Source: Bacteroides sp. (GTDB taxonomy: Bacteria; Bacteroidota; Bacteroidia; Bacteroidales; Muribaculaceae). Taken from it: a stretch of 49,892 bases of DNA. This document shows positions 33,265 through 49,317 of this stretch, piece after piece. Below the pieces are notes generated by a model. That model had not been told where the DNA came from. It did not search any database and worked only from the letters and a program-made list of their open reading frames with translations. The stretch lies in the NCBI GenBank assembly GCA_014802425.1, contig JAAVCH010000023.1, forward strand, positions 105,415 through 155,306. Direction: 5' to 3'. How positions within the stretch are numbered: position 1 is the stretch's first letter; each line of letters begins with the position of its first letter. The translations under genes were made by a program, and so were the position numbers.

Positions 33265-33421
33265 AAAACTAACTAAATAATAACTAACGCCAACAAAGTT
33301 GGCTCAGAACATATATCACTATATGCTTTATCGTGGTGCCTTTACGGGTGTATTGCATCCAACTCGGGTTTATCGTAATCATCGGCTCAAGTAGAGCGAC
33401 ATAGGGCGAATTGCATTACAC

Positions 33422-36400
33422 TCAACCGGGTAATATGAAGATCTGCGTTTTGGAATGATCGACCGCATTACCATTACCCTTGTTGAGAATTACGTATATA
33501 GTCGTGTTACGTGTCAGCGTATTACCGATGTTCTTACTATTGTCTCCGGATGTCATGGTTTCATAGGATTCGGTATCGAATTCGTCGTTTTCGTTCGAGA
33601 TTCCGTAATTGTAATAGGCATCCCAGTCGCCGTCATAGATTTTCCAGCCCGCTGCGAAATCTCCAGTCAATGTAATGCTGTAGACATTCCGGTTCTGAGT
33701 CATTTTATAAGTGCCATTTTGGGCCCAGCCGGTAGTGTTGCCTACAAGCCACAAATCGTGGGACTCGGGATCCCATGTGGGTTGCGGAAGCTGCACTGAG
33801 CTTGCGAGGAGGTTATGGTTGTTGTGGCGTACGCAAGTACTGTTGCCGGTAGGATCGAGGATGCACTCCCAGTAGTCGCGGAGGCGCGTCGTGTCGCCGT
33901 GGGGGCATGGTTCTCCGATTACTTTCCAGCCCTGAAGGTTGAGTTTTACGGAGCCATCGGCGGCGATGGTGGCGGGGGAGAGGTTGGTGGTGACACGGGC
34001 TCCGGTGCCGTCGGCTCCCTTACTGAATGTGTTGATGCGGTCTGAAGAATCCACGAAGTTGAAGATCACATACAGGTTGTCGGGGTCGAAAGCGGTGGAC
34101 TGATAGTAGAAGTTGAACCAGTCCAGCGATGCGGTTTCAGAGGTGGTGATAGCCACTCCGGGCCATTCCGTCACGGCTGCGCCTGCCGCATTGTAGAGGT
34201 AGACGTGCGTCACTCCCTTTACGAAGAAGTCAGTGGTCATCGACGTTGCTGTAGTGCCGGTGGAGGCGATGCAGCGAACGGGCATCGCGTAACCGGCGTT
34301 ACCGTCCTTGCCGTAGACCTGCGCGTTGATGTAGGTGGTAGCGTTTCCGACGATACTGAACGCCCTCAGCCAGTTGCCGATCTCGGCTTTCTCCATTCCG
34401 CTCGCCGGGGTGCGTGTCCAGTAGTAGCCGGCACGCGACTCTCCCTGCCAGTCGTCGGTGGAAGTGCCCCGGCAGCCGATTTTCGGGAAATACACGTTGC
34501 CGTGTCCGGTGGCCGACACGAAATGGGTCGTGTAGTAGGAGCCGACGTCTTCGGTGTGGAAACGGCTTGACTTGCGGAGCAGTCCCCACTCCGTATCTAC
34601 CGGGATGGCATATCCCGGCGGACAGAGTGCGGAGTTGAATTCCGGGTCTTGATAGTTATTGTTGTTTGTATCGGTGCCGTATTTTGCCACGCGGTAACAA
34701 TAGCCTCCGGCGCTTTTGTCGCCGTAGAACGCCTGACCGTCGCTCATCTCGATATATAGCCCTGATGAAGTCGCGCCGAGGTTACGGTCGAGCCAGTAGT
34801 TGCCGTCGGTAAGCTCCACCACTTCGTAGTAGGTATAGGAACTCTCGCGGCTGATCGAGCCTCCGGGCACATAATCCTCTCTGACGTCCTTATGGAAGAA
34901 ACCGGTGTGGTAAAGCGTCAGCGGATAAGTTATGTCAAGGTCGGTGCCGTCGGGAGTGACGGTGAGGATAAGCTCGCCGACGGTGTAGGCATAGGAGGAA
35001 TTGCCGGAGTTGCGCAGGCGTATCGTCGGGCCGGTCGTGGCGGTGGCCTCGATTGTACCGGAAGGAGAGGACAATGTGTTGCCGCCTGCATCCACAAACT
35101 CCACCAGGCCCTTCATGTTGTCGGAGATTTCGGCGCGCCATGTATATTTGCTGTCGCCTCCGAGGTCCCTGTAAGTGATGGCGTAGGTGTAGGTGGTGCC
35201 GGTACCGTAGGGCATGGGGAAGTGAAGCCCCTCGTTGCGGGATAGTCCGTTGTTGTCGGCTGCCTTCACTCCCTTTACCCGGGCGTTCCCCCTGTCGTTG
35301 TCTTCATCTGGTATGAAGCCGTCGGTCAGTATGGATCCATCGTCGGCATAGGTGTCGAAGTAATCGACCGACGTGATGTTGACGTAAGAATCCGACGGGG
35401 AGTTGATGGTGAGTTTCACGGCCTCCAGCATCTGGTCGGCGCGGAAGGTGCGGTCCCATACCACAGGCACCTCACGGCTCAGGCCGCCCCATGTCACAAG
35501 AATGTTCCCCTTGAGGTCGCCGGCATCCATGGGCCGGGTGAAAGTCAAGGTCACCAGATAGACCGTACCGGCGTCGTTGACATCGGGATTCTGCACCGGG
35601 GAGCCGGAGGCGTATGCGCCGTCGCCATAGGTGGCGTCGGTGCCGGATATGGCCGTGCCGGGACTATCCGCCGGTCTTACTTCGGTGATGCTCATCCATG
35701 AGGAGCCGGAAGTCACACGGAAATTCTCTTTGGTGAGCGCCGTGAGACCTGAGCTGTCGGTGACCGATTTGTCGAGTACCTTCACGTAGAACGTCTGTAC
35801 GCCGGCGTCGGAGACGGTGCGCGTCACCGTGTGGGGCACACCGAGTTCGCGTACTCCGTCGGAAATCATGTTGTAGATTTCGGGTGCGTGGTCATGGATG
35901 CAATAGGTCACTCCGGAGTCATCGGCTCCGGCACGGAATGGGTGCAGTGCCGCCTCTGCGGGATTTGTGTATCCCTTGCATCCGACGCTTTTCACCACCA
36001 ATTCATAATGATGGTTGGATTCGATGTCGTAGACCGTCGAGGCATCGGCTATGTCGAGACGGTAATAATACCGGTTGCCGTCGGAGTATGGGAGTCTGGC
36101 GATTACATGTACGTCGCCCGAGGAGGCGTTGGCCGTGGGGTGCATATAGACGGGTCCTACCGTAGCGGACACGTCCAGGTCGGGGTACGACTGTTCGTAG
36201 GAGGTATCCGTCACGGGCGGCGCCGTAATGGTGTAGGCGCCGGCTATCACCGGTGAGGAGGCGGCCTGGCCGTAGACCCTGTAAGGTACGGCCTCTACTC
36301 CGGTCCCGTCGCCCGCATCAAGGGTGAGTGTCACTTTCGCAGCGTTGCGCACGAGGGGCACCGAGCTGTAGGAGAGGAGCTGACCGAGTGTGATTCTGCC

Positions 36401-36856
36401 GCTCATCAGCATGAGGTCTTCCTGAGAGTCCCCGATGGTGTGATTTTCCCAAAGGACTCCCATATTGTAGTCGGAGTCAGGTGCCTTAAGATTCTCCAGT
36501 GTCTCTCCCTCGGGGAAAAACGATTCGTCGATGACATTGGAATTGGCTATGAATACGAATTCCAGCCCCGTCTTCTTACGGAGTTCCTGTTTGAGCGTTA
36601 TGGTGCAGGAGAGGTCGGCCGCGGGGGTCACGGCGGAGGCTTGCGCGAGGGTACCCCCGTCGAACACCAGCATAAGGGCGTTGGCCACCGATGTGTCGTC
36701 GGCGCGGGTGCGTACGGTCTTCATCTCAGGTACCGCAAACCGTATGTTGAGTTCACCGTCCTCGGGTACACCCTGCATCATAGGCTCCATCATATCGTCG
36801 CTGCATGCGCCGAGCAAGGCCAGGGGGAGGAGGTATGTCAGAAGTTTCTTAGACAT
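33422..36856 (-). CDS. Giant fimbrial tip-like lipoprotein with FISUMP and starch-binding-like modules
   Basis: 1144 residues. Lipoprotein signal LLGAC (Cys18), then KTVRTR with Arg51, the kind of site where fimbrillins are cut before assembly. Residues about 30-310 resemble a fimbrillin fold (ALMLVFDGG..., VRNAAKVTLTL). An Ig/BACON-like middle follows. Residues about 680-865 form a FISUMP domain (YWLDRNLGATSSG, GYCYRVAKYG, LCPPGYAIPVDTEWGLL, GYYWTRTPASG, YAMPVRCI). Residues about 870-980 resemble a CBM26 starch-binding domain (VTHVYLYNAAGAAVTEWPG, LYVIFNFVDSS). The last 115 (HDLWLVGNTTGWAQNGTYKMTQ...) resemble a SusE/SusF carbohydrate-binding domain. Last gene of the operon. As in Porphyromonas Mfa5-type systems, it is probably a tip subunit. 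The binding ligand is inferred. Confidence 0.8.
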   Translation of the reverse strand: MSKKLLTYLLPLALLGACSDDMMEPMMQGVPEDGELNIRFAVPEMKTVRTRADDTSVANALMLVFDGGTLAQASAVTPAADLSCTITLKQELRKKTGLEFVFIANSNVIDESFFPEGETLENLKAPDSDYNMGVLWENHTIGDSQEDLMLMSGRITLGQLLSYSSVPLVRNAAKVTLTLDAGDGTGVEAVPYRVYGQAASSPVIAGAYTITAPPVTDTSYEQSYPDLDVSATVGPVYMHPTANASSGDVHVIARLPYSDGNRYYYRLDIADASTVYDIESNHHYELVVKSVGCKGYTNPAEAALHPFRAGADDSGVTYCIHDHAPEIYNMISDGVRELGVPHTVTRTVSDAGVQTFYVKVLDKSVTDSSGLTALTKENFRVTSGSSWMSITEVRPADSPGTAISGTDATYGDGAYASGSPVQNPDVNDAGTVYLVTLTFTRPMDAGDLKGNILVTWGGLSREVPVVWDRTFRADQMLEAVKLTINSPSDSYVNITSVDYFDTYADDGSILTDGFIPDEDNDRGNARVKGVKAADNNGLSRNEGLHFPMPYGTGTTYTYAITYRDLGGDSKYTWRAEISDNMKGLVEFVDAGGNTLSSPSGTIEATATTGPTIRLRNSGNSSYAYTVGELILTVTPDGTDLDITYPLTLYHTGFFHKDVREDYVPGGSISRESSYTYYEVVELTDGNYWLDRNLGATSSGLYIEMSDGQAFYGDKSAGGYCYRVAKYGTDTNNNNYQDPEFNSALCPPGYAIPVDTEWGLLRKSSRFHTEDVGSYYTTHFVSATGHGNVYFPKIGCRGTSTDDWQGESRAGYYWTRTPASGMEKAEIGNWLRAFSIVGNATTYINAQVYGKDGNAGYAMPVRCIASTGTTATSMTTDFFVKGVTHVYLYNAAGAAVTEWPGVAITTSETASLDWFNFYYQSTAFDPDNLYVIFNFVDSSDRINTFSKGADGTGARVTTNLSPATIAADGSVKLNLQGWKVIGEPCPHGDTTRLRDYWECILDPTGNSTCVRHNNHNLLASSVQLPQPTWDPESHDLWLVGNTTGWAQNGTYKMTQNRNVYSITLTGDFAAGWKIYDGDWDAYYNYGISNENDEFDTESYETMTSGDNSKNIGNTLTRNTTIYVILNKGNGNAVDHSKTQIFILPG

Positions 36857-36875
36857 TGTCGTAGGTATGGTTCGG

Positions 36876-39866
36876 TTATTTGGATGTCACCTTGGTGGCT
36901 TCGGTGGAGTTATAGGTATTGTATTCGTCGTTTATATCGATGTCCGGGGTTTGGTTGTTGCCGTTGTTGCTGAATACGAGGCCTGTCGTACCGATAGGAA
37001 TGTCATAGTACCAGTTGCCGTTACCGTCTTGCTGCATGGCTTTGCCGGGCCATGACGAGTTGCTGGCTCCTCCCCAATAGTGTACATAAGGGGGATTCCA
37101 GCCGGAAGGATTTTCGAAATATATCCTGCCCATTCCATTGACGGCTGTGGATTTCCAGTCATACGGGCGGTTGTCGGGATTTTCGGGGAGGAATGTCTTT
37201 GACTCCCAGTCAAACCATCCTTCGCGCGACGGATAGTCGAAAAGCGGCACGCCGGGTTCATTGTCCTTTGGATAGCGATTGTGGGCCCAGTCTCCATTGT
37301 TTCCGTCGTTCATGGCATGGCCGTCTCGCCACATCATAAGTGTCTTTCCCGGGTCGGCTATTCCTGTGAGTTCGATTTTCCACCATCCGTCTGTCCCGGG
37401 TTCTTTCTCCATCATGATTCCGGGCCACATACGATTGTAGCCGTTATCTTCTCCAGGCTGGTTCGCATATTCCTTGCGGCAATTTTCACAATCACACTTA
37501 TAGTGGCCGTAGATATCCTTGCCGTTGCGGTAGGAATCCATGAAATCGTAGTCGAAATAATAATGATTGGCGGCGTCATTATCCTTGATATTCAGTTTCG
37601 CGGATTCGAGTTTGACAAAACCGCCATCCATTGATTTGGTGCCTTTCAGTGCGGTGAGGTTACTTTCGTTATCCCATCCCTTGAAGGCGATCTTGCCTGT
37701 GAATGAATACTCCAGAGCGGCCTTCATGCCGTAATCATAGTAGCCTACGGTCTTCGATGCGAATTGGGCGTCATATTCGTTGCCGGTGATGGCCGTCAGG
37801 TTGGCGGGCATGGCGAGGCACTGGTATATGTAGATATGGGGCTGGACAGCATCAGTGCCTGCGCGAGACCATGGAGCCCCCGGCTTGAAGTGGATGATGT
37901 AGTTGTCGTTGGAGGCTACGGTGTTGACGGTCACGGTTGAGGGATTGACGTAGTCATCTCCGGTAAAGCCTTCGTTGTCGACGCCGAGACGGAGCTTGAA
38001 GGCGCCCGAGCCGGTGTGTGAGGTGTCCCAGAAATCGATGTTGGATGTGTTGAGGTCTGTGTAGTGTACACGGAGTTTGAGTTCGCCGTCGGGATAGTCG
38101 GACTCCATGGAGAATGTAGCGGGTACCGTTACGGCCACGGCACTCCCGTCCGGCTTTACGATTTCGAGGTAGAGAGGGTCGTTGCCGGAGGTCCAGTTGG
38201 CGGAGGTAAGGTTGATTTGCCCGATGTTGCTTTCGATGTCGATGTCGAAAGATCCTTCATACTGCATCGAGCTGACGATTTCGCGTACACCGACGGTGAT
38301 GACGTTGGGTGTCACGTTCATATAGCGGTTGAGCACGAGGTCGTCGATCTCCACTGCCTTGTAGATTTTGCCGGCCACGAGGTGAAAGCGCCTGTACCTG
38401 TCGATGTCATCGCGGAGAGCTGGATAATACTCCGATTTCAGTCCGGGATTGACCGATATGTAGACGCGCCCGCCGCGGGTTTCGAAGTCGAAGACGTCGA
38501 TTTCCTCACCGTCGGGGGTGAGGTACTTCGGACTGTCCCACCGCAGGCCGTCGGCGGCGTTGGTGGAGTAGCCTATCGATACCTCTTCGCCGGCCTGGAG
38601 GCTTTCGATGCGTGTGGCGTCGATGTCGAGATAGACGTTGTCGCTGATGGTATAGTTGAGGGTCTGAGAGGTCCAGGGATTGACTACGACCATATTCGTC
38701 CTCAGCGTATGCAGTCCGGTTACGCTGGCTGTGATGTCGTATGCTCGGGCGCGCTCTATTCCGGTAAGCTCCTCATTGGCATCGTCGGCGGGCACGAGGG
38801 GGAGTTCGTAGGTGAGTTCCTGGCCGTCGATGCCGTCGAGTGTGGCGGTAAGGCGGAGGGTGGTGCGGCGGTCGGAATCGAGGTTCTCGGGGATGTAGAC
38901 CGTGCCCTGCCACGCCCGTGTGTCGCCTGAGGGAGTGATGGAGGGGAGGGGCACGAATCGCTGCTCTTCGGTGGGATATGTGGCCGGATTGCCAGGGTAC
39001 TCGACTCCGGAGAGGGAAATGGCGCAGTCGGAGAAGGATTCGTCGGTGGATGTGGCGGCCCCGCTTACTTTGGTGCATCCGTGGTTGACATCGGTGAGCG
39101 TGGCTCCGGTCAGAGTGAGGCGGTTGTCGCCGAAGACGGAGGCGGAGTGACCCTCGGGCGAGGCATCGAAAAGGATCGTGAAGCGCATCTTGGCGCAGAG
39201 GAAGCGTAGGTCGGCGTGGACGATGGCCTGTTTGTTTTTCTCGATCGTCACTGTTCCCTGTCCTACATTGCCGGTGGTGTTGTCGGCTCCGGTGAAGTCC
39301 ATCTCACTGCTGAGGCATGCCATGGGGAGGGCGGGCACGTCATCGGATGAGGAGCTCATGAGGATGGATGCGCCGTCGGAGTCGAGGAAGTCGAGAATAG
39401 TGTCTTTAAGCGCGTCCTCATCGGCGGGAGATGACCAGCCGGAGGCGTAGCTGTCGAGATTGGCCACGAGGTATAGGTGGTAGGAGCCTTCGGGCAGGAG
39501 TTGGGCGAGGCTGTAGTCCACGTGGCTGTCGTGGGTGTTGAGGTGTCCGTCGGCGGGTACCGCTTCGGCGAGGTCGATGGATTTCTTGAGTTGCCTGGTG
39601 GTGGGGTCGAACGCGAAAAGATGGAGCGAGGAGATGCGGCCTTCGTTCTCCATAAGGGCGATCTGGCTGTCGTTGTCGCCTGTGCGCGTGGTGCGTGATG
39701 CGGTGCCTCCGGGATTGGGTATGCGTAGCACTGTGCCTTGCGGCAGTGCTACGGTACGGTTGAAATCCAGGTCGTCGGCGCAGCCCGTTGCGAGCAGGGT
39801 CAGCAGCGAGCCGAAAAGCGGGAGGGTTGCGCGGCGGCGTGAGAAGTATTTCGTGAGTCGTTTCAT
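36876..39866 (-). CDS. Large fimbrial accessory lipoprotein with C-terminal starch-binding-like modules
   Basis: 996 residues. Lipoprotein signal LLATGC (Cys29). The N-terminal part looks fimbrillin-like (ISSLHLFAFDPTTRQLKK, SYHLYLVANLDSY). Several Ig-like segments follow, including NMVVVNPWTSQTLNYTI. The C-terminal third holds two modules with the Trp-Pro-Gly feature of CBM26-like domains: one near 765-845 (YYFDYDF, MWPGIMMEKEPGTDGWWKIEL) and one near 913-975 (GRIYFENPSGW, WGGASNSSWPGKAMQQD, LVFSNNGNNQTPDID). A CxCxxC cluster (CDCENC, about 789-794) lies inside the first. It is 19 bp upstream of the 1144-residue gene and 49 bp after the 397-residue subunit. Likely a minor or tip component of the pilus. 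Confidence 0.8.
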   Translation of the reverse strand: MKRLTKYFSRRRATLPLFGSLLTLLATGCADDLDFNRTVALPQGTVLRIPNPGGTASRTTRTGDNDSQIALMENEGRISSLHLFAFDPTTRQLKKSIDLAEAVPADGHLNTHDSHVDYSLAQLLPEGSYHLYLVANLDSYASGWSSPADEDALKDTILDFLDSDGASILMSSSSDDVPALPMACLSSEMDFTGADNTTGNVGQGTVTIEKNKQAIVHADLRFLCAKMRFTILFDASPEGHSASVFGDNRLTLTGATLTDVNHGCTKVSGAATSTDESFSDCAISLSGVEYPGNPATYPTEEQRFVPLPSITPSGDTRAWQGTVYIPENLDSDRRTTLRLTATLDGIDGQELTYELPLVPADDANEELTGIERARAYDITASVTGLHTLRTNMVVVNPWTSQTLNYTISDNVYLDIDATRIESLQAGEEVSIGYSTNAADGLRWDSPKYLTPDGEEIDVFDFETRGGRVYISVNPGLKSEYYPALRDDIDRYRRFHLVAGKIYKAVEIDDLVLNRYMNVTPNVITVGVREIVSSMQYEGSFDIDIESNIGQINLTSANWTSGNDPLYLEIVKPDGSAVAVTVPATFSMESDYPDGELKLRVHYTDLNTSNIDFWDTSHTGSGAFKLRLGVDNEGFTGDDYVNPSTVTVNTVASNDNYIIHFKPGAPWSRAGTDAVQPHIYIYQCLAMPANLTAITGNEYDAQFASKTVGYYDYGMKAALEYSFTGKIAFKGWDNESNLTALKGTKSMDGGFVKLESAKLNIKDNDAANHYYFDYDFMDSYRNGKDIYGHYKCDCENCRKEYANQPGEDNGYNRMWPGIMMEKEPGTDGWWKIELTGIADPGKTLMMWRDGHAMNDGNNGDWAHNRYPKDNEPGVPLFDYPSREGWFDWESKTFLPENPDNRPYDWKSTAVNGMGRIYFENPSGWNPPYVHYWGGASNSSWPGKAMQQDGNGNWYYDIPIGTTGLVFSNNGNNQTPDIDINDEYNTYNSTEATKVTSK

Positions 39867-39915
39867 CTGCGGCGGATGTTATGGATTGGGGCTTTGGATT
39901 CTGAGGAGGGGAGGT

Positions 39916-41109
39916 CTATAGCTCGGTATGGCGCTCTTCGTAGGTCCACTTGCGGACGGAGAGCTGGATTTCGGGAGTGTAGGAGGCGGCCACGCCGATG
40001 ATGGTGTATTCGTAGATATGGTTGCGGATGATGTGGTACTGGTTGGCCGCCGAGGCCACTCCCGTCTCGCTGTACGGACGGAAGTAGATGGAGCCGGTGC
40101 GGGGCGTGTCGTCGCCGTCGACGGTGTAGGTGGCCGTGAGCACCAGCTCGTCGGCCGCGGCCGGAGTGGTGGAGTTCTCGGTCTCCGGCAGATAGAAGGT
40201 CAGGGTCTTCCGCAGCGAGGCGTCGGTGCCGGCGCTGACCGTGTAGCCGGTCACTTCCCCCAAAGCCCCTGCGGAGGAGAAGGCGTTGGGGGTGTCGGTC
40301 ACGCCCAGTGTGCTGATGGAGGCTATGGAGGTCCAGTCGAGCCGGGGAAGTATGAGGCCTGTGGGCTGCAGGCGGTTGATGGAGAGGGACTGCAGGCGCA
40401 CCTCGCGCTCCTCCCACATCTCGTCCGACACGGTGAGGCGCACCTGGGCCATGGCGCGGAGCAGGGGGATGTCACCCATCATGAAGCTCGTGCCGAGGCG
40501 GATGCCGTCGAAGTCCACGTCGGCCACTCCCCACATCGGAATGCCGGAGAAGGTCGTGGCGTTGTCGCCGCTGCCGATGGTCTGGCCCGGGGTGCCGTAG
40601 GCGGTGAATGAGCCGGGATTCATCAGGGTCAGGGCGGTGGCGCCCGGATTATGGTTGGCGAATACGGCTATGCGGAAATCGTGGGAGGTGAGGTAGTCCA
40701 CGTTCAGGGCATCGTCGGAGATCTGGCCGGCCACAGGCTCCAGCACTCCGTCGATACGGTAGACGGCCTTGCCGTCGGAGCTTTTGACGAGCGAGGACGA
40801 CGTGCGGGCCATCCTGGCCACGGCCGATGATGCGGCGCCGTTGGCTCCGACCCTGTACAGCACCGGATATATGTCCTTTATGGCGCAGTCGAACGTGGAG
40901 CCGTTTTCGGCGGGGGTATAGTCGTCGCCCCAGGTGCCTGAGTAGACTTCTCCGGCGCGTGTGGGCGCCGGGGCGTCGACCGTCAGGTTGAGGGTGATGA
41001 GCAGGCGCTCCCGGTCCGGCGCCCCGGCGGAGGGCTCATTGCTGTCGGCGCACCCGCCGGCCGTCAGGGCCGCAAGTGGCAGCATGAGGTATAGCAGACT
41101 GTTTTTCAT
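39916..41109 (-). CDS. Fimbrillin family accessory subunit
   Basis: Start chosen at the ATG at 41109 (MKNSLLYLMLPLAALTAGGC). The open frame continues to a TTG nine bases upstream, which is less likely. 397 residues. Lipobox LTAGGC (Cys20), then APTR with Arg51, a likely maturation cut site. The body is a two-domain fimbrillin pattern (IYPVLYRVGANG, HDFRIAVFANHNPG, MAQVRLTVSDEM), with the C-terminal IIRNHIYEYTIIGVAAS and LSVRKWTYEERHTEL typical of the last strands of a FimA/Mfa-type subunit. It should be added to the pilus through donor-strand exchange. It lies 19 bp after the anchor gene, third in the operon. Confidence 0.85.
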   Translation of the reverse strand: MKNSLLYLMLPLAALTAGGCADSNEPSAGAPDRERLLITLNLTVDAPAPTRAGEVYSGTWGDDYTPAENGSTFDCAIKDIYPVLYRVGANGAASSAVARMARTSSSLVKSSDGKAVYRIDGVLEPVAGQISDDALNVDYLTSHDFRIAVFANHNPGATALTLMNPGSFTAYGTPGQTIGSGDNATTFSGIPMWGVADVDFDGIRLGTSFMMGDIPLLRAMAQVRLTVSDEMWEEREVRLQSLSINRLQPTGLILPRLDWTSIASISTLGVTDTPNAFSSAGALGEVTGYTVSAGTDASLRKTLTFYLPETENSTTPAAADELVLTATYTVDGDDTPRTGSIYFRPYSETGVASAANQYHIIRNHIYEYTIIGVAASYTPEIQLSVRKWTYEERHTEL

Positions 41110-41128
41110 GATGAGCAAGCCAAAAGAA

Positions 41129-42145
41129 TCATTCGAAAATCACGTCCGACATCAGCACCACCCTCCAGGAATTGACGTAGAGCACGGCCCCGCTCCATGT
41201 GCCGTCGGAAGAGACGTCGAAGGAGAACGTGTGCGAGTCCTGACGGTCGAGGTATTCCTGGTCGTCCATGGCGTGGCCGTAGTTGTCCTTCACTTTCAGG
41301 GCCAGGGAGGTGATCGACACGTTGTCGACCACCTTGCGCCCCGAGGCGTCGGTGACGGTGAGCGCCGCGTGGCGGTCGGCCATGAGGCGGCAGACGTCGA
41401 AGTCGGCCGCCACTCCCGTGGCCCGGGTCTCGCCTACGGCGAAGGGATGGTAGGTTATCGGTTCGTCATCGAGGAGGGAGTTGTCGTGATGCAGGAGGCC
41501 GTTGGCCTCGGTGATGGTGTATGTGTACGCGGCGGGGTCGAGCGCCTCGCCCGTTTCGGAGCGGAGCTCGACGTGTACGCGGTTGGTGTCTTTCTTAAGG
41601 TCGAGCAGATAGGAGTGGTGTCCTGTCTTGTCGGGGTTGTCGTCGCCGTAGACGGTCATGGAGGTCACGCCGTGGAAGAGGTCGTGGAGGCGGGAGGAGG
41701 AGTGGTGCGAGCCGTCTTCGCGCACTTCGCGCTCCATGCGGCACTGCAGCTGGTAGAGTGTGGAGGATCCGACGGTCATGTCGGAGAGGGTGAATGAGTC
41801 GGGGAGGTCGTCGGAGTCGTTTTCCACGCCGCACCATGCCACGACGCTGTACTCTCCGGCGGGCACTCCGTCCAGGTCGACGGCGAAACGGTCGGCGGCC
41901 AGGGCTTCCCCTTTTTCAGTGCGGATCCATCGGAGCACCTGTGTGTCGCGGTCGAAGCCGTAGAGGCTCACCGAGCGCACGCTTTCGGCAAACCGGTCGG
42001 AGAAGTCCATGTTGTGGTCCCACACGAAGCGCACGTCGTGGGTGGCCACGCAGAGGGGGAGGTCTTCGTAGATTACGGAGTCGCACGAGGCGAGGGTCGC
42101 GGCGAGGCAGAGTGAAAGAAGTATGTCGGAAAACTTATAGGCCAT
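41129..42145 (-). CDS. FimB/Mfa2 family fimbrial anchor subunit
   Basis: 338 residues. Lipobox ATLASC (Cys21) and then CDSVIYEDLPLC, the opening typical of FimB/Mfa2 proteins. VRFVWDHNMDFSDRFAESVRSVSLYGFD, GEYSVVAWCGVEN and TRATGVAADFDVCRLM are further family segments. FimB/Mfa2 proteins hold the fimbria to the outer membrane and limit its length. The C-terminus reads LYVNSWRVVLMSDVIFE, close to the major subunit's VNSWRVV strand. No cut-site Arg is conserved near residue 50, fitting a protein that stays lipid-anchored. Second gene, 114 bp after the stalk gene. Confidence 0.9.
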   Translation of the reverse strand: MAYKFSDILLSLCLAATLASCDSVIYEDLPLCVATHDVRFVWDHNMDFSDRFAESVRSVSLYGFDRDTQVLRWIRTEKGEALAADRFAVDLDGVPAGEYSVVAWCGVENDSDDLPDSFTLSDMTVGSSTLYQLQCRMEREVREDGSHHSSSRLHDLFHGVTSMTVYGDDNPDKTGHHSYLLDLKKDTNRVHVELRSETGEALDPAAYTYTITEANGLLHHDNSLLDDEPITYHPFAVGETRATGVAADFDVCRLMADRHAALTVTDASGRKVVDNVSITSLALKVKDNYGHAMDDQEYLDRQDSHTFSFDVSSDGTWSGAVLYVNSWRVVLMSDVIFE

Positions 42146-42259
42146 TGTCGTGGTGGGGAGAGCGCAGAGGGGGGTGATGAAGGTTGTGTGGTCCGCCGGG
42201 GCACGGGGTACGGCCCCGGCGGAATGATGTATGGGATGCTTTGGGATTTTTTCCGGAAC

Positions 42260-43897
42260 TTACTCGAAAGTGACGGGCTGCTTCACCACGCGCCATGAAT
42301 TGACGGAGATCTTGGCGGCCACGTAACGGGTTTCGTCAGAGTCGGAGGGCTTTTCGGGTGTGATTTCCTCGCCGGGATGGGGCACGGGAGTACCGAGGCC
42401 CCTTATACCCTGAATCTCGATTTCGTAGACATTGTTGCGGATCACGCCATACTGAAAGTCTTCGACCGCGCTGTTCTCGATTTCCACAAAGTAATAGCAC
42501 TTGCCCTGGTTCCAGTACTGGCAGGTATAGAGGGCTTCCTTCAGCATATTGTTGATTTCGGCAAGCTTGTCGGCTGCGACAGTGCCTGAGCCGGTTGCGG
42601 GAGAGCACACCAAGAAAGTCTTGTAGGCGTGAATAGTGCTGGCGTTGACTGCATTCGTGTGCTGGGTCTGGGTGGCGAAGGCGAAGTCAGCTGCAGTGAA
42701 GAGTTGGTCTTCTCCATTGAGACTCTTTCTATAGCCCTTTTCATTGACATTGGATACGATGCGGTTGATATAGCGCTCGGGAGTCATGTAGAGGCCTGCG
42801 AATTTCACGAAGTCGACCGCTTCGTCATCTTCATTCTTGAGTGTCGCGGCGATGATCATGCCGGTCTTGTGCTCCTGGTCGGTGTTCTCAAGGGTATAGA
42901 AGGATTTGGCCACCTTTGATGTGTACGCATAGTTTGAGCCGGCAAGTGTAGTCCATGAAGCGTTGTTCCACTGGGTGTCGGTTGTGACGTTATCGGTTTC
43001 TTTTTCTGGAATATCTGCCCAGTTGATGCGGTAGTTGTCGGCATCGTAGACCGAAGCGTCCCAGGTTGCCTGGGCTTTCTTCGAGAGGAAGCTCTGGTTG
43101 ATGCGGTTGTAGAGGTAGATGCCGTTGATGGTGGGAGTAAGGGTAAGCTGTGTCTCGCCGTTGTCATCGGGGTCATCGGCATTCGCCACAGAGTTGAATG
43201 TGATGGATTCGGGAGAGATGACCATGCCTGCCTCTGGCTCCGTGTATCTTACCTTGGAGGTGACGCGCTCCACATAGACTGTCATCGGGTCGGCTTTAGC
43301 TTCGGCTTCGGTAGTGTAGATGTGGCCGGTGAGTCTTGCTCCCGTTACGAGGCGTCCGTCTGCAAGATAGGGTGAGTTGGTCATGACAAAGCCGGTGGTC
43401 TCGTTGGTGACTGTGGCAAGACCCACCACCATACGTCTTACGTCTGTAATAGTGGCGTTGTTGGCCTTTAGGGTGGCATCGGTAGTGGCGATGCTGTTGT
43501 TGTCGTTGAGCACCACCAGAAGTCGGTTTGACTTAAGCGAGGTGGCGCCGTTGATTACCAGTACGGCGTTTGTGAGTTCGGCAGCGGTACCGTCTTCGGT
43601 GCTGCTGTCATGTGTGAAGTCGCTGTTAGTGATGGTGATGGTGGGCTGGCCTACATAGTTGCCGTTGCTGTCGAAAAGCAGGAATGTGGCGTTGTTGATT
43701 GTGTTCTCAGGGGTGGTGCCGTATTCGAAGCTCTCGGTGAGGGCACGTGTGGCGGTGGGCATGGCGATGCGTACCGCGATGTACTGGTCTTCACCGGAAG
43801 TTTCATTATCGGCGGAGTTGATGACGGGGTCTTCCGTCGAGCAGCTGGCGAGTGACAGGAGGGCACTCATGGCTGCTAATCCATAAATCTTTTTCAT
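42260..43897 (-). CDS. Mfa1/FimA-type major fimbrial subunit
   Basis: 545 residues. Lipoprotein signal SLASC (Cys19), then AMPTATRALTES with a cut-site-like Arg51. Fimbrillin N-domain: NATFLLFDSNGNYVGQPTI, LVVLNDNNSI, then VERVTSKVRYTEPE. The C-domain ends with GVIRNNVYEIEIQGIRGLGTPVPHPGEE, EKPSDSDETRYVAAKISVNSWRVVKQPVTFE, the Mfa1-type fimbrillin C-terminal pattern. It is the first gene of the operon and has no static promoter visible in the 222 bp before the inverted repeat. Once exported, trimmed and polymerised, it would form the shaft. Confidence 0.9.
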   Translation of the reverse strand: MKKIYGLAAMSALLSLASCSTEDPVINSADNETSGEDQYIAVRIAMPTATRALTESFEYGTTPENTINNATFLLFDSNGNYVGQPTITITNSDFTHDSSTEDGTAAELTNAVLVINGATSLKSNRLLVVLNDNNSIATTDATLKANNATITDVRRMVVGLATVTNETTGFVMTNSPYLADGRLVTGARLTGHIYTTEAEAKADPMTVYVERVTSKVRYTEPEAGMVISPESITFNSVANADDPDDNGETQLTLTPTINGIYLYNRINQSFLSKKAQATWDASVYDADNYRINWADIPEKETDNVTTDTQWNNASWTTLAGSNYAYTSKVAKSFYTLENTDQEHKTGMIIAATLKNEDDEAVDFVKFAGLYMTPERYINRIVSNVNEKGYRKSLNGEDQLFTAADFAFATQTQHTNAVNASTIHAYKTFLVCSPATGSGTVAADKLAEINNMLKEALYTCQYWNQGKCYYFVEIENSAVEDFQYGVIRNNVYEIEIQGIRGLGTPVPHPGEEITPEKPSDSDETRYVAAKISVNSWRVVKQPVTFE

Positions 43898-44119
43898 GGG
43901 AGTGAAAAAATTTGGTTAGTGAATGATTATTTTGTTAAGAAATGATTTCAAGGTTTGGGGTATGGAGTGGTTGCTACCCGGTGGCGGGATGCCGGATGGC
44001 AGGTGAGGGACCATGGTGGTGACAGGCGGGCATAAAGCACCGTAATAGATTGAAAGATAGTCGTTTGCTCTAATGTCTGCATGTATGCCTTGGTGTGTCG
44101 TAAGCCATGATTTTAAGTG

Positions 44120-44147
44120 TCTCTTGATAAGAGATACTTGTCTCGGG
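44120..44147. repeat. Left inverted repeat of the fimbrial switch
   Basis: TCTCTTGATAAGAGATACTT (44120-44139), two mismatched bases, then CTCGGG (44142-44147). It matches the reverse complement of 44336-44363 over 26 of 28 positions. The core is itself nearly palindromic (CTCTT, GAT, AAGAG), as expected for paired binding arms of a tyrosine recombinase. Confidence 0.9.
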
Positions 44148-44302
44148 CAATCGTCTGGTTTACAATCGGATATGAGCGTACTTTCCGGGGTTCCGGCAAT
44201 CCTGTCTAAAATCCCTCCGTCAAAATCCCTTGACGCTAGCTCATCCTTTATGGCCTTTGTTCGCGAATGTCATAAAAATTATTGTAAAACATATGGAAAA
44301 AA

Positions 44303-44333
44303 TTTGGTGGATTATAGAAATTGCTTAACTTTG
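44303..44333 (+). promoter_or_regulatory. Promoter inside the invertible segment, OFF orientation
   Basis: TTTG (44303-44306), 19-nt spacer and TAACTTTG (44326-44333), a full consensus. It points right, away from the fimbrial genes on the minus strand, and its start point would fall at the right repeat. If the segment 44120-44363 inverts, it will point left at the 545-residue stalk gene with a leader of about 240 nt. No CAAAnnTA (a minus-strand -7) is seen in the segment or in 43898-44119. Confidence 0.85.
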
Positions 44334-44335
44334 CA

Positions 44336-44363
44336 CCCGAGTTAAGTATCTCTTATCAAGAGA
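44336..44363. repeat. Right inverted repeat of the fimbrial switch
   Basis: CCCGAG (44336-44341), two mismatched bases, then AAGTATCTCTTATCAAGAGA (44344-44363), the inverse of 44120-44147. The unique DNA between the repeats is 188 bp. A further half-site-like AAGAGATATT lies at 44386-44395. Confidence 0.9.
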
Positions 44364-44426
44364 TTTGGATTCATCGATTATCCGTAAGAGATATTGACGC
44401 CCATAGGGTATGGGATTTCCCGTCCA

Positions 44427-44454
44427 CGAAGGCCCCGCGTCAGCGGGGCCTTCG
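44427..44454 (+). terminator. Hairpin that would stop OFF-state transcription
   Basis: CGAAGGCCCCGC (44427-44438) pairs perfectly with GCGGGGCCTTCG (44443-44454), loop GTCA. It lies about 90 bp past the outward-facing promoter and could prevent antisense reading of the recombinase gene. A T run is lacking, so strength is uncertain. Confidence 0.6.
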
Positions 44455-44480
44455 CGTTAACGGGGCTATATCATATAATC

Positions 44481-44585
44481 CCGCTATGCGGGATGTGGAT
44501 TACATTATTGCATATGCAGACCCGCACCGGGGAACCGCTACGCGGACGCCCCGATACGGGCCTGACACATATGCCCGCTACGCGG
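44481..44585. repeat. Three short palindromes CCGCTAYGCGG
   Basis: Copies at 44481-44491, 44535-44545 and 44575-44585. The flanks extend two of them to longer stems (ATCCCGC/GCGGGAT and GCCCGC/GCGGGC). They lie in the 3' region of the recombinase gene and resemble REP-like or terminator hairpins. Confidence 0.7.
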
Positions 44586-44590
44586 GCCCA

Positions 44591-44686
44591 TCGACAATGG
44601 AAGGGAATATCCTCCCGGGTCGTCGACAATGGAATGGATTACCCCCGGGTCATCGGCCGGGAAATGGAATACGCTCCGGGGTGCGG
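44591..44686. repeat. Degenerate 30-34-bp tandem repeat, three units
   Basis: Units start at 44591, 44623 and 44653. Each holds (T)CGACAATGGAA-like bases, an AT-rich middle and CCCGGGTC-like bases; the third is the most changed. They end four bases before the recombinase stop. No function is known. Confidence 0.6.
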
Positions 44687-44689
44687 GGG

Positions 44690-45655
44690 TCAGAGGGCGT
44701 TGAGGATTAGGTCGTTGGCACGGTCTACGGCTGAGGTGTCGAGGTCGGCGAGATAGATGCGGGTGGTCTTCTCGCTGTCGTGCCCCATGCCTTCGCTTAT
44801 CACACTCAGCGGCACCCCTTTGGCTTGGGCCGCCGACGCCCAGCTGTGGCGCGCCACGTAGAGCGTCAGCGGAATGTCAAGACCCAGGCATCCGCCTATG
44901 CGCTTCAGGGAGCGGTTGATGTTGTAGCCGGCGTTGCGGTAGGCCGCCCGCTCGTTGAGGCCACGGCGCCGGATGATGGGCAGCAGATAGTCCGACTCGT
45001 TTTCCGGATAGCGCTCCAGAATGGACTGCATGTTGGCGGTCCAGGCGATGCGCAGCGTCTGGCCGGTCTTGCGCCGGCTGTAGGTGAGGGTGCCGTGGCA
45101 AAGATCCGACTTCCGGAGAAACGCCATGTCCACGAAACTCATGCCCCGCAGCATGAAACTCATCATGAACATGTCGCGTGCGAAAGCCTCGGGGGAGTCC
45201 GGAGAAAGGTCGAGCGAGCGGATGCGGCGGATCGCCTCTATAGGCAGAGCCCGCTTCACGGTCTTCGCGATACCGGTATAGACATGGCGGAAAGGGGAGC
45301 GGTCACGTATAAGCCCCTCCTCCACGGCGCGGTTGTAGATGGCCCTCAGGATACGGAGATAAAAAGATATGGAATTGGGCACCACACCCCGGCTGCGGAG
45401 CCATCCCTCATAGCATTGCATGAGTTCGGAAGTGATGCGGTCGAGCCGGAGGTCGCCGGTGGCTGCGGAGAAGGAGGGGCGCCGTATGACCGGCGCGTCG
45501 GGATCGGCGATGAAGCGGAGCAGGCTGTTGAGGGCCGTGGTATAGGTCTCGGCGGTGCGTAGCCGTCCGGAGGCGCGCAGGCCAGTGATAAGACGCTCCG
45601 TGTGGCGGCGGAGCGACAGGCGGTGGTTTCTGGAAGTATTGTTCGTTGTGGTCAT
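44690..45655 (-). CDS. Tyrosine site-specific recombinase, likely the fimbrial invertase
   Basis: The ATG at 45655 gives 321 residues. The open frame extends to a TTG at 45682, but that codon overlaps a good -7 promoter element and is rejected as start. N-terminal SAM-like domain about residues 20-110 (AETYTTALNSLLRFI..., SISFYLRILRAIYNRAVEEG). The catalytic domain has MLRGMSFVDMAFL with the first Arg, YSRRKTGQ with Lys, LYVARHSWASAA with the HxxR box changed to YxxRH as in many Bacteroides invertases, GMGHDSEKTTRIYL with His and the nucleophile Tyr. Bacteroidales enzymes of this size invert promoters of capsule and surface genes. Placement beside the inverted repeats makes it the probable invertase. 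Confidence 0.9.
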   Translation of the reverse strand: MTTTNNTSRNHRLSLRRHTERLITGLRASGRLRTAETYTTALNSLLRFIADPDAPVIRRPSFSAATGDLRLDRITSELMQCYEGWLRSRGVVPNSISFYLRILRAIYNRAVEEGLIRDRSPFRHVYTGIAKTVKRALPIEAIRRIRSLDLSPDSPEAFARDMFMMSFMLRGMSFVDMAFLRKSDLCHGTLTYSRRKTGQTLRIAWTANMQSILERYPENESDYLLPIIRRRGLNERAAYRNAGYNINRSLKRIGGCLGLDIPLTLYVARHSWASAAQAKGVPLSVISEGMGHDSEKTTRIYLADLDTSAVDRANDLILNAL

Positions 45656-45679
45656 TGATGTATTGATAATGAAGTCGTC

Positions 45680-45687
45680 CAAACTTA
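45680..45687 (-). promoter_or_regulatory. -7 promoter element of the recombinase gene
   Basis: TAAGTTTG on the minus strand, 25 bp before the ATG. The nearest TTG lies 23 nt upstream, somewhat far. The short leader supports the ATG at 45655 as start. Confidence 0.5.
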
Positions 45688-45746
45688 TTTGCGATTGGAA
45701 ATATTCACTTCAATGGCTGCGATGCAAAAAAGCATGCCGCCGCCGG

Positions 45747-45768
45747 GATTATCCGTATAATCATTGAC
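45747..45768. repeat. Direct repeat flanking the recombinase gene
   Basis: GATTATCCGTA, 5 bp, ATTGAC. A matching copy, GATTATCCGTA, 6 bp, ATTGAC, lies at 44376-44398 on the other side of the gene in the same orientation. The copy here also forms a small hairpin (GATTAT, CCGT, ATAATC). It could be a recombinase arm site or the edge of an inserted block. Confidence 0.5.
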
Positions 45769-45818
45769 CCGGCCTCACCTTCCGAAACATATTCCGGCTG
45801 GAATCGTTATAGAGATGT

Positions 45819-46823
45819 ATGGCGAAAAAGAAAAGCAAGGCACCCGCCTCCGGCGGACAGCTCGAAAAGATAGCGCCCCGCACGGGGCGCGTCATCAAAA
45901 ACACCGGCAGCAGTTACCTCGTGCGTCTCGACGACGGAGAGGAGGCCCTCTGCCGCATCAAGGGGAACTTCCGCATCAAGGGAATCCGCACCACCAACCC
46001 CGTGGCCGTGGGTGACCTTGTCGAAATCTCCCTGCGCGACTCCGACGCGCAGTACATCACCTCCATCCTCCCGCGCAAGAACTACATAATACGCCGGGCC
46101 TCCAACCTCTCCAAGGAGAGCCATATACTCGCTTCCAATCTCGACGGGGCGATACTCGTGGCCTCCGTAGCGGACCCCGCGACTCCCACCACCTTCATCG
46201 ACCGGTTTCTCGCCACGGCCGAGGCCTACAACGTGCCCGCATCGGTGGTAATCAACAAATCGGACCTCTGGGACGCCGATACCCGGGCCTATGCCGAGGC
46301 CGTCAGGGCCCTGTATGAGTCGCTGGGCTACCGGACCCTTCTCGTCTCGGCCCGCACGGGGGAGGGGACCGACATCCTCCGCGACTGGACACGCGACCGC
46401 ATCACGCTCCTCGCCGGTAATTCCGGAGTGGGGAAATCATCCCTCATCAACGCCCTCGCCCCCGGGGCCGGCCTGCGTACGGGCGCCATCTCCGACCTCC
46501 ACCACACAGGCATGCACACCACCACCTTCTCCGAGATGGTCGACCTCCCTTACGGCGGCCAGCTCATCGACATACCGGGCGTCAAGGGGTTCGGCGTGAT
46601 AGATTTCGCCCCGGAAGAGGTGTCGCATTTTTTCCCCGAGATATTCCGCCGAGGGCGCGAATGCCGCTATTCCGACTGCAAGCACACCGGCGAGCCCGGC
46701 TGCGCGGTGGTGCCCGCCGTGGAACGCCACGAAATATCGGAAAGCCGCTACGCCTCCTACCTCTCCATCCTCGAAGAGGCCATGGAGACTCCCGAATCCG
46801 ACAAATACCGCAAGCCTTTCTGA
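45819..46823 (+). CDS. rsgA: Ribosome small subunit-dependent GTPase RsgA
   Basis: RsgA is a circularly permuted GTPase that checks late 30S assembly. 334 residues with a Lys-rich start (MAKKKSKAP). The OB domain (about 22-90) shows RVIKNTGSSYLVRLDDGEEALCRIKG and NPVAVGDLVEI. G4 VINKSDLW precedes G1 GNSGVGKSSLINAL (about 200-213), the permuted order. DIPGVKGFGV is G3. A zinc site CRYSDCKHTGEPGC begins near residue 282. It has no visible promoter of its own beyond a leader with a small hairpin, and converges on cdaA with only 7 bp between stops. Confidence 0.96.
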   Translation: MAKKKSKAPASGGQLEKIAPRTGRVIKNTGSSYLVRLDDGEEALCRIKGNFRIKGIRTTNPVAVGDLVEISLRDSDAQYITSILPRKNYIIRRASNLSKESHILASNLDGAILVASVADPATPTTFIDRFLATAEAYNVPASVVINKSDLWDADTRAYAEAVRALYESLGYRTLLVSARTGEGTDILRDWTRDRITLLAGNSGVGKSSLINALAPGAGLRTGAISDLHHTGMHTTTFSEMVDLPYGGQLIDIPGVKGFGVIDFAPEEVSHFFPEIFRRGRECRYSDCKHTGEPGCAVVPAVERHEISESRYASYLSILEEAMETPESDKYRKPF

Positions 46824-46830
46824 GGGAGCC

Positions 46831-47592
46831 CTAAAGCAGGTCGGAGAGCAGATGCTCCAGATTCATGCCCGACACCTTTATGGCGAACTCCCCGTCCTTG
46901 GCCACCGACACATTTCCCGTCTCCTCCGAGACGATTATGCACACCGCATCCGTCACCTGGCTCATTCCCAGCGCGGCGCGGTGGCGCAGTCCCAGTGACT
47001 TGGGTATGTTCATGTCGTGGCTCACGGGCAGGATGCATCCCACCGACTTGATGCGCTTGTCGGCTATGATCATGGCGCCGTCATGAAGGGGCGAATTCTT
47101 GAAGAAGATGTTCTCGATGAGGCGTGTGTTGATGTCGGCGTCGATTATGTCGCCCGTCTTCTCATAATCGGTCAGCGGCATCTTCCTTTGGAACACTATC
47201 AGCGCTCCGGTCTTGGACTTGGACATCGACATGCAGGCGTACACCACCTGCATTATCTGTTGATGGTTGTGCTCCCGCTGCTCGCCGTGGCGGAAGAGGT
47301 TCTTCAGCTTGTGCCATCTTCCCTGGCTGCCGAGGTCGATGAGGAAACGCTTTATCTGGTCCTGGAAAAGGACCACGAGCACGATCAGGCCGATCGACAT
47401 GAACTTGTCCATGATCGTGCCGGTAAGCCTCATGTTGAGTATTTCGGAGGCTATCACCCATACAGCCGTGAAGAAGAGCACGCCGTAGAAGAGGCTCAGG
47501 GAGCCGGAGCGCTTCATCAGGCGGTAGATGTAGTAGAGGAGGGTGGCTACGAGGAGGATGTCGATTATATCCTTTATTCCGAAGTGGAGCAT
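46831..47592 (-). CDS. cdaA: Diadenylate cyclase CdaA
   Basis: Makes cyclic di-AMP from two ATP at the inner membrane. 253 residues. Three N-terminal membrane helices (about 6-75, DIIDILLVATLLYYIYRLM, LFYGVLFFTAVWVIASEIL, MSIGLIVLVVLF) precede the DAC domain, which has DGAMIIADKRI (about 170-180) and LGLRHRAALGMSQ (about 199-211), the DGA and RHR catalytic motifs. The coupled factor CdaR is not adjacent, as is usual in Bacteroidota. It follows folP by 14 bp and is cotranscribed from the folP promoter. Confidence 0.96.
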   Translation of the reverse strand: MLHFGIKDIIDILLVATLLYYIYRLMKRSGSLSLFYGVLFFTAVWVIASEILNMRLTGTIMDKFMSIGLIVLVVLFQDQIKRFLIDLGSQGRWHKLKNLFRHGEQREHNHQQIMQVVYACMSMSKSKTGALIVFQRKMPLTDYEKTGDIIDADINTRLIENIFFKNSPLHDGAMIIADKRIKSVGCILPVSHDMNIPKSLGLRHRAALGMSQVTDAVCIIVSEETGNVSVAKDGEFAIKVSGMNLEHLLSDLL

Positions 47593-47606
47593 TTACGGTG
47601 GGGGAG

Positions 47607-48446
47607 TTAATGGTTATGGCGGAGGGCCTTGAAGAGGGCTGCGCACTGGGCGGCTTCCTTTACATCGTGGGCCCGGAGGATGTCGGCCCCTTTGAGGAGG
47701 GCGGCCATGTGGAGGGCGGTGGTGCCGTTGAGGCTTTCGTCGGGGGTGACGCCGAGGGTGCGCCAGACCATGCTTTTGCGCGAGACTCCGGCCAGCAGCG
47801 GCATGTCGAGCGCGGCGAAGGCGTCCATCTCTCCGAGCAGGCGCAGACTCTCCTCCGGAGTCTTGGCAAAGCCGAAGCCCGGGTCGAGGATGATGTCGGC
47901 CACTCCGGCCCGGCGCAGGGCGGCGGCCTTGAAGGCGAGGTCGGAGAGCACTTCCGCCGTCACGTCGGCATAGCCGGTGAGCGAGGCCATGGTCTGCGGG
48001 GTGCCTCGGGTGTGCATCAGCACGTAGGGCACCTGGAGGTCCGCCACCGTCTCCGCCATGCCGGGGTCGAGCGTGCCGCCGGAGATGTCGTTGATTATCT
48101 GCACCCCCCATTCCTCGACACACTTCCTGGCCACCGTGGCGCGGAACGTATCCACGGAAATGACGGCGTCCGGCGCCACACGGCGTATGGCCTCCAGTGC
48201 GCCGGCGAGGCGTGAGTACTCCTCGTCGGCCGGGATGTGCTCCGCGCCCGGGCGGCTGGAATACCCCCCCACGTCGAGGATGTCGGCGCCGTCGGCCAGA
48301 TGGCGGAGGGCCCGGCGGGCGGCCCCCTCGGCCTCGGGAGTGCGGCTGCCGGGAAAAAACGAATCAGGAGTGGCGTTGATTATCCCCATTATGCGCGGAG
48401 TGGAAAAATCCATCAGCCGGCCGTCGATGCATATCGTCTTTGCCAT
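47607..48446 (-). CDS. folP: Dihydropteroate synthase
   Basis: Joins 4-aminobenzoate to dihydropterin pyrophosphate in folate synthesis and is the target of sulfonamides. Start taken at the ATG 48446 (MAKTICIDGRLMDFSTPRIMGIINATPDSFF); an in-frame GTG three codons upstream is less likely. 279 residues. Pterin-binding motifs: NATPDSFF (about 24-31), DILDVGGYSSRPGAE, VISVDTF, INDISGGT, and MHTRGTP. DPGFGFAKTPEE and LAGVSRKSMV complete the barrel. No sulfonamide-resistance change can be judged by eye. It starts an operon with cdaA under a full consensus promoter. Confidence 0.96.
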   Translation of the reverse strand: MAKTICIDGRLMDFSTPRIMGIINATPDSFFPGSRTPEAEGAARRALRHLADGADILDVGGYSSRPGAEHIPADEEYSRLAGALEAIRRVAPDAVISVDTFRATVARKCVEEWGVQIINDISGGTLDPGMAETVADLQVPYVLMHTRGTPQTMASLTGYADVTAEVLSDLAFKAAALRRAGVADIILDPGFGFAKTPEESLRLLGEMDAFAALDMPLLAGVSRKSMVWRTLGVTPDESLNGTTALHMAALLKGADILRAHDVKEAAQCAALFKALRHNH

Positions 48447-48474
48447 AGATGTCACTTAATGTCTTTAGCGATGC

Positions 48475-48506
48475 CAAAGTTACAAAAAAAGAAAAACGCC
48501 CGCAAA
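48475..48506 (-). promoter_or_regulatory. Promoter of folP-cdaA
   Basis: On the minus strand: TTTG (48506-48503), 20-nt spacer and TAACTTTG (48482-48475). The predicted leader to the folP ATG is about 22 nt. Confidence 0.85.
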
Positions 48507-48563
48507 TGCAGGCGTATATTTTAGCGGCTTGTGCCGGGGGGAGGGGCGGCGCGTGGGGGCCGG

Positions 48564-49070
48564 TCAGCGGCGGAAGGGGACGCTGCGGATCACGCGCACG
48601 GGCACCGCGATGCCGTTGAGCCGTCCGGGGGTCCACGCCGGCATGAGCGCCAGGATGCGGAGGGCCTCCTCGTTGAGCGAGTCCTCAACGCTCTTTATGA
48701 CCCTCAGGTGCGACACCGCGCCGTCGGAATTGACCACGAACGAGCAGGTGACCCTTCCCTGCACCCCTGACTCATAGGCCCGCGCGGGGTACTGGCGGTG
48801 GGCGTTGATGAACTCCATGAATTTATCGTCGCCCCCCGGGAAGGAGGGCTTCTCGCTTACGAAATCGTATTCGTACACTTCCATATAGGCGCGCTGTCCG
48901 TCGGCATTGACGCCGAGATTGACGCGGCAGGTCTGGGCGGCCGCGCCCGGACCTGCGGCGGACACCGTCATTGACAGGGCGAGCAACGTGCTCCTGAAGA
49001 GAAGGGGAGTCCCGGAAATGCGCCTCCGGCACGAGGGCGTTGATGAGGTTTGTGATGGCGTAGAGCTCAT
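48564..49070 (-). CDS. Periplasmic protein with a TonB C-terminal domain
   Basis: 168 residues. The N-terminus is Ser/Thr-rich and then hydrophobic (LLFRSTLLALSMTVSAAG), a signal peptide ending near AAAQ. Residues about 70-165 form a TonB-type C-terminal domain: SFPGGDDKFMEFINAHRQYPARAYESGVQGRVTCSFVVNSDGAVSHLRVIKSVEDSLNEEALRILALMPAWTPG. There is no membrane anchor and no Pro-rich spanner, so it cannot act as a classic energy transducer. Many Bacteroidota have such stand-alone TonB-box proteins of unclear role. A good promoter is present. The start is the only ATG ahead of the hydrophobic stretch. Confidence 0.8.
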   Translation of the reverse strand: MSSTPSQTSSTPSCRRRISGTPLLFRSTLLALSMTVSAAGPGAAAQTCRVNLGVNADGQRAYMEVYEYDFVSEKPSFPGGDDKFMEFINAHRQYPARAYESGVQGRVTCSFVVNSDGAVSHLRVIKSVEDSLNEEALRILALMPAWTPGRLNGIAVPVRVIRSVPFRR

Positions 49071-49149
49071 GGGATTGTGTCAGGTAGAATGATGTGATCA
49101 AGTATATTTCCGACGGGTATGGAATCACGCCGTAGAAATCTACTTATGA

Positions 49150-49181
49150 CAAAGTTATAACTCCCCGGCCGATAATGCAAG
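49150..49181 (-). promoter_or_regulatory. Promoter of the TonB-domain gene
   Basis: On the minus strand: CTTG (49181-49178), 20-nt spacer and TAACTTTG (49157-49150). The leader to the ATG at 49070 is about 73 nt. Confidence 0.75.
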
Positions 49182-49317
49182 TGGCTCCGCGCGGATTTGG
49201 CCTCAATTAAGTTAGTTTAAACAATTTTAGCAATTCCCGCCACGGAGGCTTTTCCCCATGGGGCGCGACGCCGCCGCAGGGCAATAGAAGCGTGGCGCCT
49301 GCGTTCTATATGTTAGA

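Follow-up and report, generated by a model that had tools for sequence, protein, structure and literature searches.

A predicted invertible promoter ahead of an Mfa1-type pilus operon in Muribaculaceae, and related recombination-site pairs across the family

The pilus operon, the repeats and the recombinase gene

The window, the whole stretch of 49,892 nucleotides that was analysed (G000:C23:105415-155306), belongs to a Muribaculaceae assembly of 2.79 Mb in 48 contigs (99.88% complete, 5.45% contaminated). Five codirectional minus-strand genes, running from 43897 down to 33422, form a pilus operon of the Mfa1 type (type V), with genes for both an Mfa1-family major pilin and an Mfa2-type anchor (Table 1). 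Neither of the two large pilus proteins has a PDB relative by sequence at E <= 0.001. Because the probable tip protein carries a CBM26 module, the operon perhaps encodes a phase-variable, starch-binding pilus. No Rfam family matched in 33000-49892.

A tyrosine recombinase gene had been placed about 330 bp to the right of the repeats, and its ORF lies 326 bp past the right arm. Its 3′ end faces the repeats, so that it is codirectional with the pilus operon. Core-binding and catalytic domains are both present (PF13102 and PF00589, above cut-off). In the alignment with 4a8e, the sole PDB relative (E 5.8e-6), the arginine of the RHS motif, the GH histidine and the tyrosine align; the column of the first arginine holds a serine, with an arginine three residues earlier, and the histidine of H-x-x-R is a tyrosine.

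Table 1. Features at the pilus locus and the adjoining recombinase gene (window coordinates).
Feature	Position	Strand	Remarks
Probable tip or accessory protein	33422..36856	-	Fib_succ_major domain
Probable tip protein	36876..39866	-	CBM26 starch-binding module; FimD similarity below cut-off
Third operon gene	39916..41118	-	FimD tip similarity far below cut-off
Mfa2-type anchor pilin	41129..42145	-	PF08842, E 1.7e-56
Mfa1-family major pilin (stalk)	42260..43897	-	NF038041, 178.7 bits (cut-off 130); PF15495
Leader between switch and pilin gene	43898..44118	-	no promoter match of 8/10 or better
Left recombination site (predicted)	44119..44135		GTCTCT-TGATA-AGAGAT; in left arm plus 1 base outside
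Invertible segment (predicted), both 28-bp arms included	44120..44363
Promoter TTTG-N19-TAACTTTG	44303..44333	+	faces right, OFF for pilus operon
Right recombination site (predicted)	44348..44364		ATCTCT-TATCA-AGAGAT on +; in right arm plus 1 base outside
12-bp perfect GC-rich hairpin, no T run	44427..44454		between switch and recombinase gene
Tyrosine recombinase, candidate invertase	44690..45682	-	SAM_5 and Phage_integrase domains; 3′ end faces switch

The imperfect 28-bp inverted repeat of the original prediction is confirmed to the nucleotide, its arms (44120-44147 and 44336-44363) agreeing at 26 of 28 positions as 20 identical, 2 mismatched and 6 identical. When the whole window was shuffled by mononucleotide three times, the best inverted repeat of the same arm length (spacer 60-400) reached only 20-21/28. 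The 188-nt interior does contain a full promoter of the Bacteroidales type (-33 TTTG and -7 TANNTTTG; consensus as given in PMC8748976), present as TTTG-N19-TAACTTTG, a form with four perfect matches in the 49.9 kb on both strands. It lies on the plus strand and points away from the pilus operon, as had been claimed. The arrangement is that of an inverton, in which inverted repeats enclose an intergenic promoter and a codirectional operon lies on one side. A 13-nt direct repeat, GAAAAAATTTGGT (43904 and 44296), was taken as chance.

Each recombination site is more likely a 17-bp quasi-palindrome than a whole 28-bp arm, and the working site is probably TCTCT-N5-AGAGA, to judge by the motif recurring elsewhere in the family. 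Its 5-nt centre, TGATA, is identical in the two sites. The recombinase would bind both sites, and strand exchange within the identical centres would flip the segment between them, so that TTTG-N19-TAACTTTG would face the pilus operon (ON); the -7 box would then end a computed 253 nt ahead of the pilin start codon. As assembled, the promoter faces away and the operon is OFF. On the minus strand of 43897-44363 the best promoter match is 7/10, with none at 8/10 or above, in keeping with the claim that the operon has no other visible promoter. The further claim that the operon should be silent is too strong, since an assembly displays one orientation only and transcripts of the recombinase gene may read through. 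The gap that separates the switch from the recombinase gene shows no intrinsic terminator in either direction; as the recombinase gene also reads toward the operon, low read-through in the OFF state is possible.

Site pairs and their matched centres

Exact pairs of TCTCT-N5-AGAGA are present in 89 of 297 Muribaculaceae genomes at a gap of 153-183 and in 14 of 297 at a gap of 200-230, with none in the reversed-letter control at either spacing. The centres were compared in an arms-only scan of 60 fetched stretches, covering 62 of at least 75 pairs, in which the centre played no part in finding the pairs. In 59 of the 62 the centres match in inverted orientation, in three they match directly, and in none are they unmatched; the remaining 13 of the 75 listed pairs have equal inverted centres by eye. 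At the gap of 200-230, equal inverted centres were seen by eye in 15 of 16 pairs, and the other (G156:C49:180966) differs at one centre base. The centres themselves are diverse (39 distinct among 93 switches in 66 genomes), and homologous loci may differ in centre, as in TGCTT/TGCTA (L195/L201) and TAATT/TGATT (L051/L052), with a match kept within each pair. In 60 of the 62 pairs the motif TAnnTTTG ends 13-16 nt inside one site.

Tyrosine recombinases demand matched crossover regions in their partner sites. The matched centres behave as such regions, and therefore argue against the alternative in which the promoter is fixed and the repeats on either side are operators bound by a protein, with nothing flipping. 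Each site is near-palindromic, as operators often are, yet operators would have no need of equal inverted centres; the present orientation of the promoter would moreover serve no codirectional gene, just the antisense strand of the recombinase gene. An inverted copy also exists: on two contigs of one genome (L216/L217), a 1780-bp left flank is colinear and 96.5% identical, and the 204-bp switch next to it is 90% identical and inverted. Past about 25 bp the right flanks diverge, which marks the two as copies rather than alleles. The operator model is very unlikely and was rejected on the matched centres of the 62 pairs. Opposite orientations also occur, over short matches, among more distant recombinase-linked loci (L054 and L173 versus L030, L031 and L202).

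No full-length relative of the window segment was found in 81 genomes of the genus, and for that reason the opposite orientation of the locus was not seen there. What mostly recurs in these genomes is 44326-44370, with the -7 box and the right site, and a GC-rich stretch near 44295-44340. One locus from the same genus as the window (L209, genome G235) equals another (L025) over the compared segment and flanks.

The pairs matched in direct orientation are L189, L190 and the first pair of L199, a locus with three sites; with their centres matched in this way, they should excise rather than invert. An avoidance of equal centres within a genome, as a kind of address code, was considered and dropped for lack of evidence (1/38 equal versus 1.28 expected by shuffling), on a list that omitted the direct pairs (G135, G178, one of G243 and one of the six of G378) and the unequal-centre pair of G156.

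In an order-wide draw of 159 genomes, pairs were present in 1 of 156 outside the family (G378); the same draw gave one reversed-letter control match (G387), so that this result would be weak but for the six pairs in G378. That genome, of 2.1 Mb and from another family of the order, has mostly different centres in its six pairs.

Recombinase linkage, a probable second switch and the genes behind the switches

Among the recombinase loci (the best 80 of 407 homologues), 34 have a matched site pair within 1.8 kb behind the gene, or 35 of 81 with the window. In the other 46 the limits used gave no matched pair; some of these lie near contig ends and some have deviating repeats. Of 128 family genomes that are at least 90% complete, 86 encode a recombinase homologue (E <= 1e-55). 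Site pairs are present in 45 of these 86 versus 1 of 20 listed genomes without the recombinase, a comparison (Fisher 8e-5) that left out 22 unlisted recombinase-negative genomes and overstates the association because the genomes are related. The one exception, G007, has two matched pairs (on C10 and C12; L223 and L224) and no homologue at E <= 1e-55, which suggests that another enzyme may use such sites.

For a list of switches, matched centres were required and exact duplicates dropped (94 to 87). In 40 of the 87 the stretch retrieved contains no recombinase homologue (E <= 1e-30), consistent with a single enzyme acting on several switches. Five loci (L022, L030, L031, L042 and L047) have two switches with different centres behind a single recombinase gene.

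These counts also bear on whether the recombinase could belong to a mobile element that had integrated here, the repeats being what is left of its attachment sites. Its domains are those of phage-type integrases. Against this, the combination of sites and promoter is found again behind the gene in the 34 of 80 loci and occurs without it in the 40 of 87 switches, and the scanned neighbours of the window gene are the pilus operon and rsgA. This origin is accordingly most improbable.

The interpretation as a phase switch is thus supported by the layout, the recombinase domains, the shared sites, the matched centres and one inverted copy in relatives. It is highly probable (about 0.88), from comparison of sequences, that the window segment is an invertible promoter switch flipped by the recombinase encoded at 44690-45682, with the pilus operon OFF as assembled. 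The flipping of this segment, the window recombinase as the agent, and its action on a second pair of sites in the same genome are the parts that we infer.

That second pair, at G000:C20:19173-19417 (L090 9174-9418), and the window pair are the only matches in the assembly to the 20-bp core with up to three mismatches; the reversed-letter control gave none. Both have an unusual spacing (230 versus 229 at the window), and the centre is TTATA, versus TGATA at the window. This switch is ON, its promoter facing a DUF1846 gene (NF010184 equivalog, PRK13663) 316 bp away. No recombinase homologue adjoins it, and the next-best homologues of the window recombinase in the genome match at 28-34% over part of the length. 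On the simplest reading the window enzyme would act on both switches of its own assembly, and it probably serves this second one, although contig C20 could be foreign given the contamination score of the assembly. GC-rich intergenic repeats of the type CGCTACGCGG adjoin both switches (window 44470-44640; L090 9009-9171).

For 38 linked switches, counting that of the window, the first genes downstream match FHA (7), zinc ribbon (4), SrfB (2) and NusG (2), with restriction-modification, TerD and other families as singletons. Fimbrillin_C occurs among them at the window only (among the matches listed, for 25 of 37 families). PADLOC models at the linked loci (L010-L088) comprise restriction-modification, SspB, PbeA, Mads, viperin-like and PD-T4-6, with one member per model; where linked switches lie ahead of such phage-defence genes, defence would be phase-variable and mostly OFF. 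For the 21 unlinked switches that have a single possible target, the first genes include those for NusG (5), TonB receptors (3) and a phage-integrase N-terminal domain (2), the last suggesting that some switches may drive a recombinase.

Orientation bias and likeness to known systems

Where a switch lies no more than 1.8 kb behind a recombinase gene, its promoter mostly faces the 3′ end of that gene (38 OFF, 6 ON and 3 unclear of 47), whereas unlinked switches with one possible target are evenly divided (10 ON, 10 OFF and 1 unclear of 21, with 19 ambiguous ones left out; Fisher p = 0.0039 for linked versus unlinked). With a relaxed -7 box the linked switches divide into 40 OFF and 7 ON. Counted once per cluster of recombinase identity, they give 34 OFF, 6 ON and 1 mixed of 41 at 90%, and 25 OFF, 5 ON and 2 mixed of 32 at 80%. 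Sense terminator-like hairpins follow the recombinase gene in 16 of 42 linked switches with a gap of up to 600, compared with 5% of shuffled gaps.

Promoter inversion ahead of surface genes is well established in Bacteroides. In Escherichia coli the order of the fim genes is fimE-fimS-fimA. The window resembles fim in combining a tyrosine recombinase, an invertible promoter, a fimbrial operon and an OFF bias, with the effect of fimS orientation on FimE output as a possible further likeness; fim differs in its unrelated pili, a 314-bp element with 9-bp repeats, two recombinases and the involvement of IHF, Lrp and H-NS (as described in PMC9993118 and PMC8777976). Also similar are a phase-variable pilin locus of Bacteroides fragilis, with an invertible promoter before type V pilin genes and with tyrosine recombinases (Weinacht 2004, as described in PMC12632263), and the fimbrillin genes that lie close to invertons in a defined gut community, likewise type V pilin genes with tyrosine recombinases (PMC11892184); the pilin systems described in these two sources are in other genera, and the likeness does not extend to a comparison of repeat sequences. 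The IP-ARG switches of Bacteroidales, as described in PMC8748976, have an invertible promoter of the -33 TTTG / -7 TANNTTTG type directly downstream of an invertase gene and are predominantly OFF in 92 of 96 cases, one class having two tandem regions; they differ from the window in occurring in human-gut Bacteroidales, often on conjugative elements and with other targets, and are likened here by features other than their repeats.

A close parallel in layout and orientation is Tsr19 (BF2766) of B. fragilis, where the invertible promoter IVp-I lies immediately downstream of the tyrosine recombinase gene and IVp-II is distant, the local promoter being mostly OFF and the distant one about evenly mixed (1.03% and 59.7% ON in one inoculum; PMC4747536). 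The likeness is one of arrangement, not of protein or site sequence, and the Tsr19 targets described there are an exopolysaccharide and a lipoprotein cluster rather than pili. The local bias vanished with a plasmid-borne recombinase, and its authors left open suppressed expression or a regulatory mechanism (PMC4747536).

Feedback in cis, an extension of the switch model, is one tentative explanation of the linked OFF excess. A promoter in the OFF orientation would direct transcription toward the 3′ end of the recombinase gene beside it, lowering the amount of enzyme by antisense RNA, polymerase collision or 3′-end effects on recombinase output, so that the local switch would rest OFF; once ON, the brake would be lifted and the enzyme would flip the local switch back, with unlinked switches unaffected. 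The contrast between linked and unlinked switches, the own assembly with its local switch OFF and its distant one ON, and the loss of the B. fragilis bias with the enzyme on a plasmid (PMC4747536) all point this way. However, in 8 of 36 OFF switches with a gap of at most 600, the OFF direction contains a terminator-like hairpin ahead of the recombinase gene (3% in shuffled gaps), which would stop the transcript before it reached that gene. The bias is not significantly stronger at short distances from the recombinase gene (25/2 versus 15/5, p = 0.12), and at 75% identity the clusters fall to 13 OFF, 5 ON and 2 mixed of 20.

A cost of expression predicts the identical bias. Selection alone, with the switch real, the recombinase unregulated and costly ON cells outgrown, is quite possible as the source of the OFF excess, if short of an even chance. 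The targets behind linked switches include restriction-modification and other defence genes, which may be costly, and the four predominantly ON resistance-gene switches among the 96 of PMC8748976 are read likewise by their authors. Cost does not, however, predict the loss of bias with a plasmid-borne enzyme in B. fragilis (PMC4747536), and the unlinked switches, which also lie before surface genes, divide 10/10. That the switch family is self-damping, the local operon staying OFF and distant switches, alike in arms but not in centres, drifting near 50:50, is a proposal that we regard as doubtful.

None of the matches listed from the open literature reports switches of this kind in the gut-dwelling family Muribaculaceae. 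The site rule of fixed arms, a free but matched 5-nt centre and a promoter 12-16 nt inside one site makes candidates findable in assemblies for which no reads are available, and together with the orientation bias it extends the finding beyond one locus. The contrast between linked and unlinked switches makes a testable model out of a puzzling published observation, in which one enzyme would keep one operon rare and another common. Self-damping, if true, would mean one enzyme with two dynamics set solely by gene position, and would explain the local bias of Tsr19.
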